NCBI RefSeq assembly: GCF_005405385.1
Contig: NZ_BJDY01000002.1
Location: forward strand, 186,001 to 250,000
Origin: Lactiplantibacillus mudanjiangensis
Lineage (GTDB): Bacteria; Bacillota; Bacilli; Lactobacillales; Lactobacillaceae
DNA length: 64,000 nucleotides
Direction: 5' to 3'
The first letter of the stretch is position 1. Every line of letters begins with the position of its first letter. This document shows positions 4,781 to 43,904 of the stretch, piece by piece. The position numbers and the translations under genes were made by a program. The notes under the pieces were generated by a model. The model was not told the DNA's origin. It saw only the letters and a program-made list of their open reading frames with translations, and searched no databases.

Positions 4781-4985
4781 CATGAATCCCTCCAAAGTTA
4801 GTCATAAGTTCATTATAAAAAAGTTGATGGCATAAGCAATGGCACTGTAGCCAGTCGTTTTCCTTATGAATGGTGAACTAATCAACCAGATAGTTGTTAA
4901 AACCGACCGTTTGTCCAAATGAGCTGGTGTTCCGTCAATAAAACGCGTATTTTTAACTTATCAAAAGGAAATGGGGGCTGGAACA

Positions 4986-5435
4986 ATGCGGATTGTGACT
5001 GAAATTATTGCCAAACTTGTTGAACCGTTGATAACGATTCAAGCGCCGCGCCAAGACGCACAACTAGAAGCGCTAACGACAACGGTAGCCCAAGCGACCG
5101 AAGCGGTAACATTAGTTGGTTATCGTCAGCAACGAGTTAAACGAATTCCCAGTTATTTAATCAAACGGTGTTATAGCGCGAATAAAAAGCTTTATTGTGA
5201 AGTAGTCGATGAGGATGAACCGTATGAACTCCATCAGCCGTTATATCAAGTTGTCCAACTATTGCCAGTAACTTTATTTTTACAAATTTCGCAGGCTGAA
5301 ATCGTTCGGATTGCCAGTATTAAAAATTTTAGTTTGACGAAGACGGGGACGTATCAAGTTAACTTGACCGATGGCACGACAACTTATGCATCGCGGCGAT
5401 ATACACAACGATTGCGAAAGGAGTTTTTAAAATGA
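4986..5435 (+). CDS. LytTR DNA-binding domain regulator
   Basis: About 149 residues. The C-terminal half (about 55-149) matches the LytTR fold: IPSYLIKRCYSANKKLYC, then PVTLFLQISQAEIVRIASIKNF and TTYASRRYTQRLRKEF, which is the beta-rich domain used by AgrA/AlgR-type regulators. There is no receiver domain. The start at 4986 is preferred because an earlier ATG at 4971 overlaps the purine-rich site. The stop overlaps the ATG of a DUF3021 membrane protein (ATGA). LytTR-DUF3021 pairs are known two-gene units in Firmicutes, in which the membrane protein probably restrains the regulator. A second pair is at 43025-43904. Confidence 0.85.
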   Translation: MRIVTEIIAKLVEPLITIQAPRQDAQLEALTTTVAQATEAVTLVGYRQQRVKRIPSYLIKRCYSANKKLYCEVVDEDEPYELHQPLYQVVQLLPVTLFLQISQAEIVRIASIKNFSLTKTGTYQVNLTDGTTTYASRRYTQRLRKEFLK

Positions 5436-5878
5436 AACGTTATTTAAAAATTGGCTTTAATGGTGCGGGGATTGGGATTGTTGTCGGTTATTTGATGGCA
5501 CTGATTTTTTCGTGGTTGTTTGGAAGCTCATCGTTTTATGCGTCACGGCCGGGGTTTGTTGACAGCTTCAATAATAGTTTAACCGCCGCTACGGTCTCAA
5601 CTGGCTTGTGGGCCCTGATTGGGCTAGTGTTTGGGTTTGGTGGATTAATTTTTGATCAGGAACAGTGGAGTATCACCAAACAAACAGTTATTCATTTGCT
5701 TGTGACCTATGTGACGTTTACACCACTAGCGATTCTTTGCGGCTGGTTCCCCTTGAATTTGGGGTGGATCGGAATATATACACTGATTTTTATTGCGGTT
5801 TACGTTGCGATTTGGAGTAGTGAGTTTCAAGCGACTAAACGTGAAATTCGGCGGTTGAATCGGTTATTGAAACACTAA
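5432..5878 (+). CDS. DUF3021 family membrane protein
   Basis: A 148-residue protein with four predicted membrane helices (about 7-30, 50-73, 86-105 and 110-130) and a charged cytosolic tail SEFQATKREIRRLNRLLKH. It matches the DUF3021 pattern, usually encoded right after a LytTR regulator as here (4-base overlap). Its likely role is as a membrane-bound partner or inhibitor of that regulator. Unusually, a second copy of its 3' end is found at 7932-8008, followed by the same downstream DNA. Confidence 0.82.
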   Translation: MKRYLKIGFNGAGIGIVVGYLMALIFSWLFGSSSFYASRPGFVDSFNNSLTAATVSTGLWALIGLVFGFGGLIFDQEQWSITKQTVIHLLVTYVTFTPLAILCGWFPLNLGWIGIYTLIFIAVYVAIWSSEFQATKREIRRLNRLLKH

Positions 5879-6029
5879 AGCAGAAATCGGCAGGGTGATT
5901 GCAACTAAGCATGGATAAAAGCGTATTGGTATTTTATACTAAGGACATCGGGACCAGTTGCTTAAGTGCAAAGTGATGTAAATTCGGGTTTTTGGAGAAA
6001 TGGAATGCCGGTATGGCAGCGTTTGCTTA
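5879..6029 (+). repeat. CRISPR leader copy 1
   Basis: About 150 bases of AT-rich DNA upstream of the first decayed repeats. It is nearly the same as 8009-8161 and shares its last 100 bases in part with 10622-10734. Conserved blocks include GCAAAGTGATGTAAATTCGG and the final CGTTTGCTTAG before the first repeat. Position, orientation and conservation fit a type I-E leader that holds the array promoter and the spacer-integration site. Confidence 0.72.
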
Positions 6030-6167
6030 GTATTCCCCACATGCGTAGGGATGATCCTTTCGGTAAAGATTTCAAGTTCAAAACGCAATTTAGTATTCCC
6101 CACGCACGTAGGGATAATGTTTGGATATTGCGGCATCAGGTATGTCCCGCATACGTAGAGGAGACTC
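6030..6167 (+). CRISPR. Decayed CRISPR array 1, three degenerate repeats
   Basis: Repeats at 6030-6057 (close to consensus), 6093-6120 (altered 3' end) and 6140-6167 (strongly degenerate). The gaps are 35 and 19 bases instead of the 33 seen in array 3. Repeat 1 begins GTATTCCCCAC and ends GGGATGATCC like the intact array. The increase of changes away from the leader and the irregular gaps show loss of function. No cas gene is nearby. Confidence 0.75.
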
Positions 6168-6293
6168 AACGCAAAATAATTTTTTGCGAAGGCTAAAAAG
6201 ACTGAAAAGAGCGAAACCAATAGCTAATGAGACATCTTCCAGTCCGTTGGCTGCTTATGTGATAATGAAATAAGAAAGAGATTATATTTTAAG

Positions 6294-6782
6294 ATGAAAG
6301 CTACCGTTGTTATAAAGGAAATGTGTGCTATAGTCAGATATGATAACCAAATCGTCTTGAAATTAAGCTTCAAAAATGAAACTATATTCATTTCTGATGT
6401 GTCTCCAAAAACATTCGAGAAAAAAGAGCAATTACTTTTATCTGCAATTGGAACCATATTTGATGATTGGTCACAAAATGAGGAAAAGATTCGTGGCTTT
6501 TTTAGTTTTGATTATAATGACATAAAGGATCATGATGCAACAATTGATACTTTTGAGCAGCACCCTCAAAGCAATCTTAAAATTGCTTATAATATTGTTG
6601 CTAACAAAAGCCATAATTCTGGCTACACGGAGAGCGAGTTTATAACTACTGATGTAACTTTTTCAAGTGGAACTGAAGCAGAAAGTTTTTTTGAAGAAAC
6701 AGTTCAATATGGAAAAATCAAATATGAATTTTTGGGTATTGATGGTGAGACGGCAAAACCGGATAATCGGCTGAAAGTTTAA
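6294..6782 (+). CDS. hypothetical protein, first of three tandem paralogues
   Basis: 162 residues, soluble, with many Lys, Glu, Asp and Phe. I do not recognise the family. It resembles its two downstream neighbours: an N-terminal strand pair (CAIVRYDNQIVLKLSFKN, near 11-28), a helix with IGTIFDDWSQN, and a C-terminal SEFITTDVTF block. The ribosome site is weak (AAGAAAGAG about 12 bases upstream). The DNA is visibly more AT-rich than neighbouring genes. It lies between two decayed CRISPR units that are copies of each other, so the triplet may have come in with that duplication. No function is proposed. Confidence 0.7.
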   Translation: MKATVVIKEMCAIVRYDNQIVLKLSFKNETIFISDVSPKTFEKKEQLLLSAIGTIFDDWSQNEEKIRGFFSFDYNDIKDHDATIDTFEQHPQSNLKIAYNIVANKSHNSGYTESEFITTDVTFSSGTEAESFFEETVQYGKIKYEFLGIDGETAKPDNRLKV

Positions 6783-6845
6783 AAACAATCGGTCGATTAC
6801 TTATATTTCAGCTATTTGTAAATAAGTGAAAGGAATGCGCTCTTG

Positions 6846-7367
6846 ATGACGAATATTACTTATGTGTTTGATTATTTATATGCCAAGGTTCGTTACTATA
6901 ATGAGTTAGCACTTGATCTTGAATTCAAACAAGTATTCTGTCAATATATGGCTGATGGCCCCATGAAGTCGGATCTTGAAGCAGAATCGCTTTGGGAAGC
7001 AGTTCGAACCGTTTATGATAATTGGGATGAAAGTTTAAATATAGAATTCGACGAGGATGACAATAATGAGGTCCCAGGGGTTTACTTTGGTTCCTCTTAT
7101 GAGGATGTTATTCAAGGAAAAGCTGAACTAGACAGTATTGTTGTAAGCGAGGATAATACTTTTATGGCGACTTTTAATATGATTAATCGAAAAAAATATA
7201 ATCTTGGCGAACTCGAAAGTGAATTCGTAACTATTAAGGGCCATGTTGTTTACGATGTTGATGAAGATAAACTTTTATCAAAGTATAAATTCATTAGACA
7301 CTATAAATTTTATAGTGTCCCAGATCGAAAGGTGTTTTACGATGGCGACAAAAAAATTCTATTTTGA
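6846..7367 (+). CDS. hypothetical protein, second of three tandem paralogues
   Basis: 173 residues, acidic, no signal peptide or membrane helix. Shared features with the neighbours are YLYAKVRYYNELALDLEFKQ near the start, AVRTVYDNWDES in the middle and ESEFVTIKGHVVY towards the end. The ATG at 6846 is about 9 bases after AAGGAA. Its last 26 bases overlap the start of the third paralogue, so the two are probably translationally coupled. AT-rich like the first. The family is unknown to me; the tandem divergence suggests diversifying selection or distinct partners. Confidence 0.7.
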   Translation: MTNITYVFDYLYAKVRYYNELALDLEFKQVFCQYMADGPMKSDLEAESLWEAVRTVYDNWDESLNIEFDEDDNNEVPGVYFGSSYEDVIQGKAELDSIVVSEDNTFMATFNMINRKKYNLGELESEFVTIKGHVVYDVDEDKLLSKYKFIRHYKFYSVPDRKVFYDGDKKILF

Positions 7368-7800
7368 TTATATCAAAGCAACGGTTCGATTAAATACGAT
7401 AAAAAAATTGAAGTTTGAAATGCAAGATATCCTTATTTCATTGGATGATGTTGACGAAAAATCGGACTTTGAGGATCAAATCTGGCTAGCGATATGTGTT
7501 ACTTATCAGGAATGGGTTACTGGCTTGTCAGCCGAGTTGCTGAAAGGCAATTCTTTCTTGACACAACTATTTCAAATGAATGATCGTACAAATTTGCCGG
7601 CTGATACTGTGATTGATGTTTTGCCTGGATTTGGTGAGTATCAAGAACGGTTGAAAGTCTTTAGCTTAATTACGGATTTAGGGTCACATGCCGAAACAAA
7701 CAGTTATTTTGTGAATGTGAGTGTACGTCACTTTAATGGTATGCCAACTGAATTGCAAAAGAAAGCTCATGCGACAGTTACTTACGAACTGAAGTTTTAG
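7342..7800 (+). CDS. hypothetical protein, third of three tandem paralogues
   Basis: 152 residues from the ATG at 7342, chosen because CGAAAGGTG precedes it and the paralogous alignment begins there; the frame is open further upstream but inside the second paralogue. It shares FDYIKATVRLNTIKKLKFEM, AICVTYQEW and NSYFVNVSVRHF with its neighbours. Soluble, no known catalytic motif. It is the last gene of the triplet and is followed by a hairpin terminator. Function unknown. Confidence 0.7.
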   Translation: MATKKFYFDYIKATVRLNTIKKLKFEMQDILISLDDVDEKSDFEDQIWLAICVTYQEWVTGLSAELLKGNSFLTQLFQMNDRTNLPADTVIDVLPGFGEYQERLKVFSLITDLGSHAETNSYFVNVSVRHFNGMPTELQKKAHATVTYELKF

Positions 7801-7822
7801 ATCAGTGTTATTAATTAAATGT

Positions 7823-7867
7823 AGAAGACTAAATGGTGATTCTTTTGACCGCTTAGTCTTCTTTTTT
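7823..7867 (+). terminator. Terminator after the paralogue triplet
   Basis: AGAAGACTAA (7823-7832) pairs with TTAGTCTTCT (7853-7862), and a T-run follows. It ends the three-gene unit. Confidence 0.8.
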
Positions 7868-7931
7868 GAAAAATGAATTAGCTGGGACTGCTTGAATATA
7901 ATTATCATTGATACAATCAATGATCACATGT

Positions 7932-8008
7932 CTTATTTATATCGTTGGCGGTTTTTATGTGGTAAGTTCCAAGCGATGAAGAGGGAACTTAGGTTACTAA
8001 AACATTAG
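7932..8008 (+). pseudogene. Remnant of a DUF3021 gene (last ~25 codons)
   Basis: Translation gives LIYIVGGFYVV and, after a one-base shift, FQAMKRELRLLKH followed by a stop. This matches the end of the intact DUF3021 protein (LIFIAVYVAIW, FQATKREIRRLNRLLKH). The following DNA is also the same as that after the intact gene, so the segment is a duplicated gene tail and not a chance match. No start or upstream part is present. Confidence 0.75.
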
Positions 8009-8161
8009 GTTAGAAATCAGTAAGGTGATTACAACTAAGCATGGATAAAAGTGTATTGGTATTTTATACTAAGTACATCAAGGCGGTTTGCTTGAGTGCA
8101 AAGTGATGTAAATTCGGGTTTTTGGAAAAATGGAATACCGGTATGGCGGCATTTGTTTAGT
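8009..8161 (+). repeat. CRISPR leader copy 2
   Basis: Aligns base by base with 5879-6029 with few differences, including the blocks GATAAAAGTGTATTGGTATT and GCAAAGTGATGTAAATTCGG. It is followed by degenerate type I-E-like repeats. Together with the DUF3021 remnant it defines the right-hand copy of a segmental duplication. Confidence 0.75.
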
Positions 8162-8311
8162 GTATTCCCACGCATGTAGGGATGAGACCATCGTAAAATT
8201 ACTGGTTAACTTTATTTAAGGCGTATTCCCCACGTACGTAGAGATGATCCTAAAAAAAGAGCCAGGTTTGTGTTCCTAGCTCAGTGTTCCCTATGAACGT
8301 AGGGACGATTA
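8162..8311 (+). CRISPR. Decayed CRISPR array 2, three repeats
   Basis: Repeats at 8162-8189 (one C lost, altered 3' end), 8223-8250 (two changes) and 8284-8311 (strongly degenerate). Both gaps are exactly 33 bases, so the original spacing is preserved although the repeats have decayed. The two spacers (8190-8222 and 8251-8283) differ from those in array 3. Confidence 0.8.
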
Positions 8312-8390: not shown

Positions 8391-9254
8391 TTAGTCTTTT
8401 TTACCACTGTATACGGGGAATACACTATTCTTACCATAGTCATCCATTTTGATTGCTTTTAATATGGTCATATCAGCAGCACTAATATCAAAATCCATTT
8501 CTGTGTTATTCTTCATATGTGCAACACTGCTGGCTTTAGGGAGTGGAACCAAGTTTAATTGTAAACAATACTTGATTGCTAGCTGGGGTACGCTGACTCG
8601 ATATTTTTCAGCCATCGCAACAATTTCTTGTGAGTTCATCATGGCACCATGAGCAACGGGCGAATAAGCTTCGACCAAGATGTTCTTACTTTGCGCGTAC
8701 TCGATTAAGTCAAATGGTGTATTACCAATATGTGCCAATATCTGATTAACCATTGGCATCACTGTGGCATTTTCGATTAAGTTATCTAAGTCAACTTGTT
8801 CAAAGTTAGATACGCCAATCGCACGTAATTTACCAGCTTTGTAAGCTTCTTCCATGGCCCGCCAAGCTTCAAGATTACCTTCAAAATAGTGATTACCACT
8901 TCGAAAATCGTCCCATGGTTCAGGACTATGAATAAGCATCATGTCAAAATAATCTAGGCCAGACTTTTGCAAGGAGTCATCAATGGCAGCCTTGGCACCA
9001 TTATAGTCTTTAAAACGCGCATCTAATTTGGTAGTCACGAATAAGTTCTCACGGGCAATACGACTATTTCGAATTGCTTCACCAACACCGTGTTCATTAC
9101 CGTAGCCTTGGGCAGTATCAATATGGCGATAACCAATCTCAATCGCTGCTTGCACTTTGGCCGGCGCGTCTGCATCCTCAACCATCCAAGTCCCATAACC
9201 AAGTTTAGGCAGTTTAACTCCATTTGCTAACGTATAAGTTTCATTTAAAATCAT
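8391..9254 (-). CDS. aldo/keto reductase
   Basis: 287 residues, the usual length for AKR5-type reductases. The catalytic tetrad is visible: D46 and Y51 in HIDTAQGYGNE, K76 in TTKLDAR, and H109 in LIHS. It would reduce aldehydes or ketones with NADPH in the cytosol; the exact substrate is unknown. The ATG overlaps the stop of a short MerR-like gene (TAATG), so the two form an operon. A LysR gene is divergent from this operon. The pair lies between CRISPR units 2 and 3. Confidence 0.92.
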   Translation of the reverse strand: MILNETYTLANGVKLPKLGYGTWMVEDADAPAKVQAAIEIGYRHIDTAQGYGNEHGVGEAIRNSRIARENLFVTTKLDARFKDYNGAKAAIDDSLQKSGLDYFDMMLIHSPEPWDDFRSGNHYFEGNLEAWRAMEEAYKAGKLRAIGVSNFEQVDLDNLIENATVMPMVNQILAHIGNTPFDLIEYAQSKNILVEAYSPVAHGAMMNSQEIVAMAEKYRVSVPQLAIKYCLQLNLVPLPKASSVAHMKNNTEMDFDISAADMTILKAIKMDDYGKNSVFPVYSGKKD

Positions 9255-9454
9255 TAATCATCGTTCCTTTCTTGTAATTGTCGAATTAAAAAGTCCACGC
9301 AATAAAGTTGTTGCTGTGACTGATGGATGGTGCTCAGTAAATGTTTTCGATAGTCATTAAGTTGGATTTGCTGTTGTGGCTTTGATGATGCCATCAGCTT
9401 TTTGACCACTGCTAAAGACATACCGGTATCACTTAACGCTTGAACTGTAAGCAT
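9254..9454 (-). CDS. MerR family regulator fragment lacking the DNA-binding domain
   Basis: 66 residues that match only the dimerisation part of MerR-type regulators (SDTGMSLAVVKKLM, then a helix ending LIRQLQERNDD). The N-terminal winged helix that binds DNA is missing, and none is found upstream. Still, an ATG with GGAGGG six bases before it is in place, so a short protein could be made. It is either a remnant of a full regulator that once controlled the aldo/keto reductase or a dimerisation-only modulator. The first is more likely. Confidence 0.6.
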   Translation of the reverse strand: MLTVQALSDTGMSLAVVKKLMASSKPQQQIQLNDYRKHLLSTIHQSQQQLYCVDFLIRQLQERNDD

Positions 9455-9603
9455 CACTATCCCTCCATCGCATTTGATAAATCAATTATAAAATCGTTCT
9501 TGATTCATTACCAACACTTGTTTTTCATGGATTACCATGCTTTTTATTCATATTACAACGTGATAGACTAAACCTAAATAAGTTTGAAATGGGAGACACC
9601 TTT

Positions 9604-10485
9604 ATGGATGTACGCATATTGAAATACTTTCTAGCAGTTGCGCAAGAGCAAAATATTACGAGAGCGGCGGAGAGTTTACATACGTCGCAATCAAACTTGT
9701 CTCGTCAACTAGCCGCATTTGAGGATGATATTGGGAAACAGTTGATTAATCGTGGCAGTCGTAAGATAACCTTAACTGATGAAGGGATGTTTCTGCGTAA
9801 ACGGGCTCAAGAAATTGTTGACTTAGTTGATCGCACATCCAATGATTTGATTAATTTTGACAATGACGTCACCGGTGATGTCTATTTGGCGGCTGCGGAA
9901 ACACCAGCGATTCGCTTACTAGCGGACGTTATGGTTGACATACAAAAACAACATTCGCAAATCAAATTTCACATTTTTTCTGGTAGTACCATTGAGGTGG
10001 CCGAGCGCTTAGATACTGGGTTAGTTGATTTTGGGATTTTAGTTGAACCGGTTGACCTACAAAAATACGATTATTTACGGTTACCAGTGAAGGATACTTG
10101 GGGCGTTTTAATGCAACGTGATAGTCCTTTAGCACAAAAAAAGGTCGTTGAACCAGCGGATATGCGAGATAAGCCCATCTTGGGTTCACGACAAATGTTA
10201 GATGGCAACGTTTTATCAGGTTGGTTAGGGATCAACCCACATGAATTAAATATTGTGGCTACGTTTAACTTAATCAATAGTCCGGCTATGATGATTGAGC
10301 GTGGCATGGGCTATGCGTTTACATTCAGTCATTTAATTAATACGACCGGCAACCCTAATCTTTGTTTTCGACCATTGATGCCAAAGGTGGAAACCAGCCT
10401 TTATTTGGTATGGAAAAAGTATCAAGTTATGACACCGGCCAACAATCTTTTTTTGAAGCAATTACGTCATCAATTGACTTTCTAA
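9604..10485 (+). CDS. LysR family transcriptional regulator
   Basis: 293 residues, normal LysR length. The N-terminal helix-turn-helix (about 1-60) includes FLAVAQEQNITRAAESLHTS and QSNLSRQLAAFED; the rest is the substrate-binding domain. The ATG at 9604 is chosen because it begins the conserved MDVRILKYF and follows GGGAGA; an ATG 15 bases earlier lies before that site. It is divergent from the MerR-fragment/aldo-keto reductase operon, which it may regulate. Confidence 0.92.
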   Translation: MDVRILKYFLAVAQEQNITRAAESLHTSQSNLSRQLAAFEDDIGKQLINRGSRKITLTDEGMFLRKRAQEIVDLVDRTSNDLINFDNDVTGDVYLAAAETPAIRLLADVMVDIQKQHSQIKFHIFSGSTIEVAERLDTGLVDFGILVEPVDLQKYDYLRLPVKDTWGVLMQRDSPLAQKKVVEPADMRDKPILGSRQMLDGNVLSGWLGINPHELNIVATFNLINSPAMMIERGMGYAFTFSHLINTTGNPNLCFRPLMPKVETSLYLVWKKYQVMTPANNLFLKQLRHQLTF

Positions 10486-10621
10486 AATAATATAACAATC
10501 TTAATTGCTTATAGGTAGTAGAGGATAGGTACGGAAAAGTGGGGACTTGCAAAATGCGACCCACAGAATTGATAGTTGGACAACCGGTAAAAATTTATTT
10601 GACGGATCTAGGTAATAGATA

Positions 10622-10734
10622 AAGCTGCATAGGTATCTTATACTAGATACATTAGGACGATTGTTTGGATGCAAAGTGATGTAATTTCGACTTTTTTGAA
10701 AAATAGAATGCTGGTATAACGGCGTTTGTTTAGT
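10622..10734 (+). repeat. CRISPR leader copy 3
   Basis: Diverged but clear match to leaders 1 and 2: TATACTAGATACATTAGGACG, then GCAAAGTGATGTAATTTCG, then GGCGTTTGTTTAG directly before the first repeat. The 136 bases before it (10486-10621), after the LysR stop, show no gene. Confidence 0.75.
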
Positions 10735-11128
10735 GTATTCCCCACGCATGTAGGGATGATCCCGGCCGGCATGATTTTAACGGCAAACTGCCGCCGTATT
10801 CCCCACGCATGTAGGGATGATCCTACACGTACCGGGTTCACCGGTGTCCGTGCTTGGTATTCCCCACGCATGTAGGGATGATCCCTGGCACGGCCTAAGC
10901 GTTGATGGTAGCCACGAGTATTCCCCACGCATGTAGGGATGATCCCAGCAATTCCCATATCAGGATTACCATCAAAAAGTATTCCCCACGTATGTAGGGA
11001 TGATCCTTGGGCGATGCTTGATTGTGTTATTAAGCATGAGTATTCCCCACGTACGTAGGGATGATCCCGAACAGAAATTTTTGCCAATAGATTCACACTA
11101 ATATTCCTCACGCATGTAGGGATGATCC
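10735..11128 (+). CRISPR. Type I-E-like CRISPR array, 7 repeats and 6 spacers
   Basis: Repeats of 28 bases start at 10735, 10796, 10857, 10918, 10979, 11040 and 11101. All six spacers are 33 bases, typical of type I-E. Repeats 1-4 are identical (start GTATTCCCCACG, end GGGATGATCC). Repeat 5 has one change, repeat 6 two and repeat 7 two, so decay rises away from the leader, which sets the orientation as + strand. A possible further remnant lies near 11162. The repeat has the inner palindrome CCCCACGCATGTAGGG expected for Cas6e. No cas gene is in the window; targets of the spacers cannot be told here. Confidence 0.95.
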
Positions 11129-42998: not shown

Positions 42999-43024
42999 TT
43001 CGTATTGAAATGGAGGCGGTTTTG

Positions 43025-43480
43025 GTGCGCCAACAATTTGAAGAGCACCCTGAAATCGACCCTGATGATCCACTGATTGTCATTCAGGCGGCCGCAGAAA
43101 CCGGGCAAGTGCCGGATTTAGAAACGTATTTAGCACAATTTCAGGCATCACCAACTGGTATTATTCCAATCAAAACGCCGGACCGATTAGTGATGATTAA
43201 AGTTCAAACCATTGTATCGGTCGAAATTCAAGCTAATTTATTGTGTCTATACACCACTGGTGAGACCGTTCAAACTCGGGACACGTTACGGCATTTTATG
43301 CAGCGCTTGCCAGGGACAACGTTTGTTCAAGTATCCAAACATGGCCTGTTAAATTTAGATCATTTACGCTCGTTAGAGGACAGCTTTTCCGGTAATATGA
43401 CTGCAATTTTAGCCAATCAAGTTAAAGCAGATGTCAGTCGAAAATATGTTAAAAATTTGATGCAGCGACTAGGCATTTAA
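43025..43480 (+). CDS. LytTR DNA-binding domain regulator
   Basis: About 151 residues, starting at GTG 43025, eight bases after GGAGG; the ATG at 43010 is part of that ribosome site. LytTR domain at about 45-150: IIPIKTPDRLVMIKVQTIVSVE, ETVQTRDTLRHFMQRLPGTTFVQVSKHGLLNLDHL (in parts), NQVKADVSRKYVKNLMQRLG. It is nearer to the standard LytTR than the copy at 4986. Followed by DUF3021 after 13 bases and preceded by an ABC exporter, which it probably controls. Confidence 0.9.
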   Translation: MRQQFEEHPEIDPDDPLIVIQAAAETGQVPDLETYLAQFQASPTGIIPIKTPDRLVMIKVQTIVSVEIQANLLCLYTTGETVQTRDTLRHFMQRLPGTTFVQVSKHGLLNLDHLRSLEDSFSGNMTAILANQVKADVSRKYVKNLMQRLGI

Positions 43481-43493
43481 AGGAGGCAAAAAC

Positions 43494-43904
43494 GTGAATA
43501 AGGTTTTACGCTATGCGATGCAGGGAGCGGGATATGGGAGCGTTGCCTACTTATTGTTGCTGGCGAGTCATTTAGAAAATTGGCCGCATAGTTCTGGTCG
43601 CATTGTGAGTGTCTTGTTGATGAGCGCGGCGATCGGGATTTTAACGTTGGTATTTGATAGTGATCGCTTGAGTTTCTTAGCGGCGCTTGGCATTCATTTT
43701 GTGGGCACCTTTGTGCTCGTAATTGGCATGCTAAGTTATCAAGGCGTGCCTACTAATTGGCCGGCAGCGGGTGCGATTTGGTCGTTTGGTTGGTCGTATA
43801 TTGTGATTTATGTGGGCATTTATGCAGTTGTCCGATTCAATCAGCATTTGCGGGTGACTAAGATTAATCAAGCCTTGTTGAAACGGAATCAGTCGCAGAA
43901 GTAA
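43494..43904 (+). CDS. DUF3021 family membrane protein
   Basis: 136 residues, four predicted helices (about 14-27, 40-55, 62-85 and 95-118), GTG start after AAGGAGG. The same position and topology as the DUF3021 gene at 5432 but low sequence similarity. Probable membrane partner of LytTR. It is last in the ABC-LytTR-DUF3021 operon and its stop touches a long terminator. Confidence 0.85.
   Translation: MNKVLRYAMQGAGYGSVAYLLLLASHLENWPHSSGRIVSVLLMSAAIGILTLVFDSDRLSFLAALGIHFVGTFVLVIGMLSYQGVPTNWPAAGAIWSFGWSYIVIYVGIYAVVRFNQHLRVTKINQALLKRNQSQK

Follow-up and report, generated by a model that had tools for sequence, protein, structure and literature searches.

The window analyzed here, a 64,000-nucleotide (nt) stretch of the Lactiplantibacillus mudanjiangensis contig NZ_BJDY01000002.1 (positions 186,001 to 250,000; RefSeq assembly GCF_005405385.1), is a region with three leader-bearing type I-E mini-arrays of clustered regularly interspaced short palindromic repeats (CRISPR) and small gene blocks between them. 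The end of a DUF3021 gene, the leader that follows it, and the start of array 1 recur directly ahead of array 2, and three small genes lie between the two copies. Our best explanation, to which we give a probability of roughly one half, is that array 2 is derived from array 1, that the three genes were captured by recombination, and that both are part of a wider pattern in which gene-size DNA comes to lie between type I-E repeats, mostly near the trailer end. Below, labels with G denote genomes (G000 carries the window) and labels with L denote fetched loci. The relevant features of the window are as follows.

4971-5435, plus strand: LytTR DNA-binding protein, the upstream partner of the DUF3021 gene (Pfam PF04397, E=4.6e-13)
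5432-5878, plus strand: intact DUF3021 gene (Pfam PF11457, E=5.2e-37); the duplicated tail derives from its last ~18 codons (about 5822-5878)
5879-6029, plus strand: stretch from the gene stop to the leader, and leader 1 (from 5911); 85% over 170 nt against copy 2, leader profile match
6030-6167, plus strand: array 1, with repeats at 6030-6057 and 6093-6120 and a degenerate third at about 6140-6167
6294-6782, plus strand: triplet gene 1, open frame of 162 amino acids (aa), no assigned family
6846-7367, plus strand: triplet gene 2, open frame of 173 aa, no assigned family
7342-7800, plus strand: triplet gene 3, open frame of 152 aa, related to gene 2
7964-8008, plus strand: DUF3021 3'-end remnant (its peptide match is reached by none of 2954 random windows)
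8009-8161, plus strand: stretch from the remnant's stop to the leader, and leader 2 (from 8041), by alignment to copy 1
8161-8311, plus strand: array 2, with a degenerate repeat at 8161, a repeat at 8223, and a further degenerate one at 8284
8391-10485, mixed strands: gene block between arrays 2 and 3, open frames; a similar block in G001 at 70%
8391-9254, minus strand: aldo-keto reductase (AKR)-like frame of that block, named by reading
9254-9457, minus strand: small frame of that block
9589-10485, plus strand: LysR-like frame of that block, named by reading
10615-10734, plus strand: leader 3 (72-74% in local alignments with units 1 and 2)
10735-11128, plus strand: array 3, the best-preserved array, with seven repeats at 61-nt spacing (all 7 found at 0-2 mismatches, where chance predicts none)

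The duplicated segment and its arrays

Local alignment joins 5862-6118 to 7992-8248 (257 bases each), with 211 of 264 columns identical (80%) and a score of 256; the maximum in 200 shuffles was 37. The ungapped core is 170 nt long at 85%. By segment, the two copies agree at 35 of 43 aligned bases in the gene tail (with 16 gap columns), 25/32 between stop and leader, 45/54 in the outer leader, 60/65 in the leader core, and 23/26 in the first repeat. Collinear similarity this far above chance supports the duplication of a segment that comprises the gene tail, the leader, and the beginning of the array. An earlier, sequence-only reading of this DNA had proposed just that, and had named identity below 70% or a loss of collinearity as grounds for abandoning the idea; the alignment shows neither. 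That reading had also called the second gene tail a remnant, and at the level of the peptide (EFQATKREIRRLNRLLKH against KFQAMKREL----RLLKH) the claim stands: the match covers about the last 18 DUF3021 codons and is equalled by none of 2954 random windows. Upstream of these codons, no convincing similarity between the copies was found. Array 2, about 2.1 kb downstream, may well be a derived copy of the array 1 unit.

The repeat sequence in the window is GTATTCCCCACGCATGTAGGGATGATCC; it is this repeat, together with effector genes on another contig, that assigns the region to type I-E. Array 3 has the 28-nt repeat and ~33-nt spacers of the type, arrays 1 and 2 are degenerate (the first repeat of array 2 contains indels), and a conserved leader precedes the first repeat. 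No DUF3021 gene tail was found upstream of leader 3 (score 12 vs. 24). The earlier account of two copies was right about the duplication and incomplete otherwise: it overlooked the third leader with its seven repeats, and the event that it described is not the whole story but belongs to a larger set, in which seven mini-arrays have leaders.

These seven full leader units of G000 all lie on contig C2, three in the window and four elsewhere (L015, L016, L017, and L078). They were found, along with partial units, by a profile of the leader end and first repeat that was itself built from the seven G000 copies, which therefore match by construction. The profile matches 15 of 21 genus genomes, where the matches listed include about 1-4 full-length units per genome outside G000.

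On contig C3, G000 carries a type I-E effector operon in which cas3, cse2, cas7, cas5, and cas6e score above the NCBIfam cut-offs and cse1 is recognized below its own (61.8 of 70.05 bits). An early idea, that this genome is without type I-E cas genes, was ruled out by the presence of Cas6e. The Cas1 model, in contrast, has no match in G000, whereas 14 of the 21 genus genomes match it (Cas2 was not searched by model), and no frame of at least 90 aa occurs in the 0.9 kb after cas6e. Because Cas1 is undetected, the arrays look frozen; those in the window can probably no longer grow, and Cascade may still read and use them. A type I-E effector operon without adjoining Cas1 was seen both in G000 and in G003 (L077:6013-13574 and L079:7718-15310). 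In G003, repeats and other genes follow cas6e, and the single Cas1 match is on another contig.

Three genes between the copies

The triplet is AT-rich, as the sequence-only reading had said, with a guanine plus cytosine content of 33.9% compared with 42.4% for the window. Its description as a triplet of paralogues is supported for genes 2 and 3 (E=1e-5 over 68 aa) and not for genes 1 and 3 (E=4.7); genes 1 and 2 were compared within a three-way alignment only. None of the three proteins has a trusted match in Pfam, PADLOC, or PHROGs: the hit of gene 2 to PADLOC PDC-M16A (E=0.01, 12 bits) is too weak to be trusted, and gene 1, searched in these three collections only, has no homologue above chance. 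Gene 3 was found in one of 301 family genomes, namely G000 itself. The plasmids searched contain no source for the triplet DNA and no match to the gene 3 protein, and gene 2 has no match among viral contigs. The triplet is thus without relatives wherever we searched, and its intact frames hint that the genes are in use.

No inverted pair lies at the triplet borders among the 8 pairs listed, and Pfam finds no transposase family in the frames; a transposon or insertion sequence would call for one or the other. Nor is the triplet a giant spacer in the sense used below, because its right border is a gene tail plus leader, not a repeat. We propose instead that DNA sharing the gene tail and leader recombined with array 1. 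If a circular molecule carried the triplet, the tail, the leader, and an array, one crossover at array 1 would leave the intact gene, an array, the cargo, the gene tail, and a second array, in that order; recombination would in this way have placed a second DUF3021 3' end, with its leader and initial repeats, about 2.1 kb downstream, and the triplet between the copies.

Gene-size inserts in this genome and its relatives

Six of the seven G000 units have genes between the unit and the next same-strand repeat; array 3 has none within the window. The cargo consists of the triplet, the block at 8391-10485, and the inserts of L015, L016, L017, and L078. At L015, between rplT and a HAD-like gene, the order is leader, repeat, small helix-turn-helix (HTH)-type gene, repeat. 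The corresponding gap in L. daowaiensis is 358 bp and holds no repeat, and no repeat-like match was seen at rplT in the 4 genus loci (of 14) that have rplT within reach. The L015 insert has no plasmid match and one distant protein match in a viral contig. The site was also considered as a relic of the plantarum-group cas site, an idea that was rejected since the arrays point the opposite way. At L017, three repeats are followed by a GrpB gene (Pfam, 4.4e-48) and then by part of a leader and one more repeat, and L016 has three repeats, 4 kb with three genes, and one degenerate repeat. These three genes, on the minus strand between the array and the lone repeat (L016:9364-12298), have no assigned family, and one of them looks secreted, by reading. 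L078 runs from leader, repeat, and spacer to a truncated repeat, two small frames, and a terminal repeat; no source was found for its insert, and two relatives have regular arrays, of 6 and 38 repeats, at the collinear site. Beside this shared array site, a tRNA seems to be inverted relative to the collinear flanks between two species (L078:5668-5751 and L081:6060-6143).

Other genus genomes have comparable inserts in their arrays. G012 has a NUDIX gene (L128) and G019 a phage minor-capsid piece (L127); G018 has a relic (L126) and a 129-aa frame (L309); and in G008 (L314), two small gene blocks lie in a row with a degenerate repeat between them. Cas6e is present in 73 of 397 family genomes, and 60 cas6e windows were fetched from outside the genus (G290 and G371 were left out); the survey covered arrays with the I-E seed in these windows. 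Such an array was present in 45 of the 60, and five of the 45 contain a gap of at least 300 nt (L249, L254, L278, L287, and L307). The L249 insert was judged to be an ordinary insertion sequence from its transposase-like frame and inverted ends. L278 holds a tape-measure piece followed by an HTH gene, and L254:8209-10480, near the end of a 48-repeat array, holds a phage-type integrase, a lipoprotein-like frame, and a phage-type metalloprotease. Smaller gaps of 230-259 nt, for which no explanation was found, occur in L259, L291, and L308. Shuffled repeats had no match in 3.65 Mb. A source was sought and not found for the inserts of L126, L128, L254, L287, L307, and L314.

For two inserts, those of L127 and L278 (about 1.2 kb each), a phage source could be traced. 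The homology of the L127 insert to viral loci ends at the right repeat in all 25; on the left it begins at the repeat in 16 loci and 45 nt inside in nine, and an inner stretch of about 600 nt is unmatched by these phages. The left edge shows AA and then T in register in 10 of 12 printed loci, the other two rows being out of register. Although viral contigs match this insert, the phages collection gave no DNA match. At L278, only one of 28 viral loci (L316) covers the whole insert, at 73% over 1206 columns, whereas the others match parts; its homology begins with the first bases after the left repeat, where AA stands in register, and stops one base short of the right repeat. The I-E systems of lactobacilli use an AA motif. 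Among genus spacers with a phage match (matches below 24 nt or 75% identity were dropped), AA lies directly upstream of the best match in 12 of 14, one of these by tie, and 490/501 genus spacers start with C or T.

Both inserts, then, are foreign DNA bounded by repeats with the motif on the leader side, in the case of L278 according to one phage contig, and they look like "giant spacers." Alternatively, phage DNA may have recombined with two spacers. Under this model the right-end spacer would have its AA at 34 nt (L278) or 35 nt (L127); spacers of 34 nt make up 4 of the 35 regular ones in the L278 array, and one of 35 nt occurs among the 501 of the genus.

The position of the inserts within their arrays is far from uniform. 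Eight inserts in arrays of 17-104 repeats are each followed by only 1-3 further repeats, an outcome that none of 1,000,000 uniform draws produced. This test (n=8) counts L314 once, despite the degenerate repeat that splits its insert, and leaves out the insertion sequence of L249, the 200-300 nt gaps of L259, L291, and L308, the loci L128 and L129 with their several units, the short arrays of G000, L309, and L310. Long inserts may survive at the trailer end or do the least harm there, or a mechanism specific to the trailer may place them. According to a review (PMC8047081), trailer-end spacers are rarely deleted, and changes in the terminal repeat may protect them.

All of this could in principle be decay, with defunct arrays gathering random insertions and the bracketing having no special cause. 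The G000 arrays are indeed short and diverged, and one survey insert (L249) is an ordinary insertion sequence. We nevertheless consider decay alone improbable, given that gene-size inserts sit also in long, regular arrays (L126, L127, L278, and L307), that the two traced phage segments begin and end at repeats, and that all eight tested inserts crowd toward the array end.

Relatives of the L015 HTH protein occur in 26 of 301 family genomes, its own included. A type I-E repeat (up to 6 mismatches) lies within 1.5 kb in three of the 25 loci fetched: its own, one in G008 inside an array (52% identity over 50 aa), and one in G019 that adjoins a degenerate repeat immediately upstream of cas3. All three repeat-near proteins match PHROG 1529 (L310:10511-10708, L314:11198-11425, and L015:5311-5529), and they come from three species. 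As a tentative proposal, which we rate somewhat below an even chance, Lactobacillaceae type I-E arrays would take up gene-size phage DNA (0.3-2.5 kb) as giant spacers between repeats, with AA on the leader side. Such inserts would persist toward the trailer end, at times as two neighbors, and whole genes would be kept in some of them, notably those for small phage-type DNA-binding proteins of one family in or beside the arrays of three species. A common tendency toward recombination at leaders and repeats may lie behind both the triplet and the giant spacers.

Origin of the arrangement and comparison with known systems

The alternative closest to capture is a plain tandem duplication of LytTR gene, DUF3021 gene, leader, and array, with loss of the second gene pair and the later arrival of an unrelated triplet. 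Copy 2 does retain the order gene tail, leader, array, and repeat and leader units also lie close together in relatives (L128 and L129). However, there are no traces of a second LytTR gene or of the remaining DUF3021 gene between 6168 and 7963, and genes recur between repeats at several other sites. We regard tandem duplication as rather unlikely, and prefer capture, narrowly, because no second gene pair has left a trace and the bracketing recurs. The sequence-only reading had offered two routes, insertion after a tandem duplication and capture of the unit along with the triplet.

It is important to list what weighs against capture and the wider account. Tandem duplication with later replacement yields the same final order, and the crossover with a circular donor is a step that we infer. 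The search for relatives found none carrying the window locus, no empty site, and no circular donor. As DNA alone, the gene tail is a weak match, equalled by 23 of 5000 random windows under strict scoring and 2 of 5000 under soft scoring. The units differ by 15-20%, so the event would be old and its traces blurred. Leaders 1 and 2 share 86%, less than the 90% shared by the leaders of array 3 and L016, so the youngest copy is not identified by leader similarity alone. The evidence for exact phage borders comes from two inserts, both in other species. Finally, an assembly error could in principle fuse a spacer to phage DNA of the same sample, and the draft L278 is not safe from that. An artifact is less likely in general, because the L127 insert is decayed, its right repeat has diverged, and inserts occur in assemblies of 1-4 contigs (G113, G012, G018, and G019).

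A regulatory cause was also weighed. In a CreTA-like arrangement, spacers of the mini-arrays would guide Cascade to the promoters of the bracketed genes and so hold arrays and genes together. Cascade is retained, Cas1 is undetected, and degenerate repeats adjoin genes, all of which would suit it. We compared 21 spacer-like stretches with local DNA, and 15 of these with 20 shuffle sets. The array 3 spacer at 10946-10978 matches 9341-9373 at 20 of 33 positions with AA upstream, and no shuffle set reached 20 (maximum 19). However, this match lies inside the coding frame 9254-9457 and not in the triplet promoter, and the best AA-flanked match in the triplet (18/34, at 7224-7257) was reached by 7 of the 20 sets. 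No spacer matching the promoter of a guarded gene was found in the local DNA, to which this comparison was limited, and we think such regulation highly improbable here. The array 3 spacers have no phage target in the phages collection.

Spacers are about 33 nt long because the Cas1-Cas2 complex measures their length, and array-finding programs with spacer-length limits would tend to miss inserts of the kind described here. If kilobase phage segments do lie between repeats with the right motif, either the length control by Cas1-Cas2 can be circumvented or arrays recombine with DNA of phages. On the giant-spacer proposal, phage genes would have a way into bacterial chromosomes through CRISPR arrays, which would also be a place where such genes are kept.

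The region shares with type I-E multi-array systems the 28-nt repeat, 33-nt spacers, conserved leader end, and AA motif, and other genus genomes likewise bear arrays both beside and away from cas. It differs from the usual sets in that no Cas1 was detected alongside its seven short units, most of which have genes ahead of the following repeat, and in the gene-size inserts of relatives. The inserts resemble integron cassettes in that small genes are each followed by a short sequence that recurs, at times with two such units in a row (L314 and L278). Here, in contrast, the recurring sequences are CRISPR repeats with normal spacers alongside, and no integron integrase was seen, although none was specifically sought.

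CreTA, as described in PMC9458426, also combines degenerate ectopic repeats adjoining small genes with the presence of Cascade. In the present case no promoter-directed spacer was found, and the inserts, which lie several kb apart, consist of protein genes or pieces of phage instead of a two-repeat RNA module. Turnover of spacers by repeat recombination (PMC8047081) offers in its stable trailer end a possible explanation for the survival of long inserts, whereas the text consulted has no occurrence of "long spacer" or "insertion." Nor do the portions consulted of PMC9458426, PMC6070500, PMC8616872, and PMC8047081 describe kilobase inserts as spacers. The full-text literature searched, in which coverage of subscription journals is poor, yielded no such report, which is weak evidence of novelty.

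Relatives of the DUF3021 protein (E<=1e-20) occur in 4 of 20 other genus genomes, at only 42-52% identity; in these four loci no array was seen in the frames and no leader matched, and the protein has no match in the named genomes. The AKR-LysR block downstream of array 2 matches as a unit in one other genus genome. A second pair of LytTR-like and DUF3021-like genes, by reading, lies farther along the window at 43010-43904, without an array.

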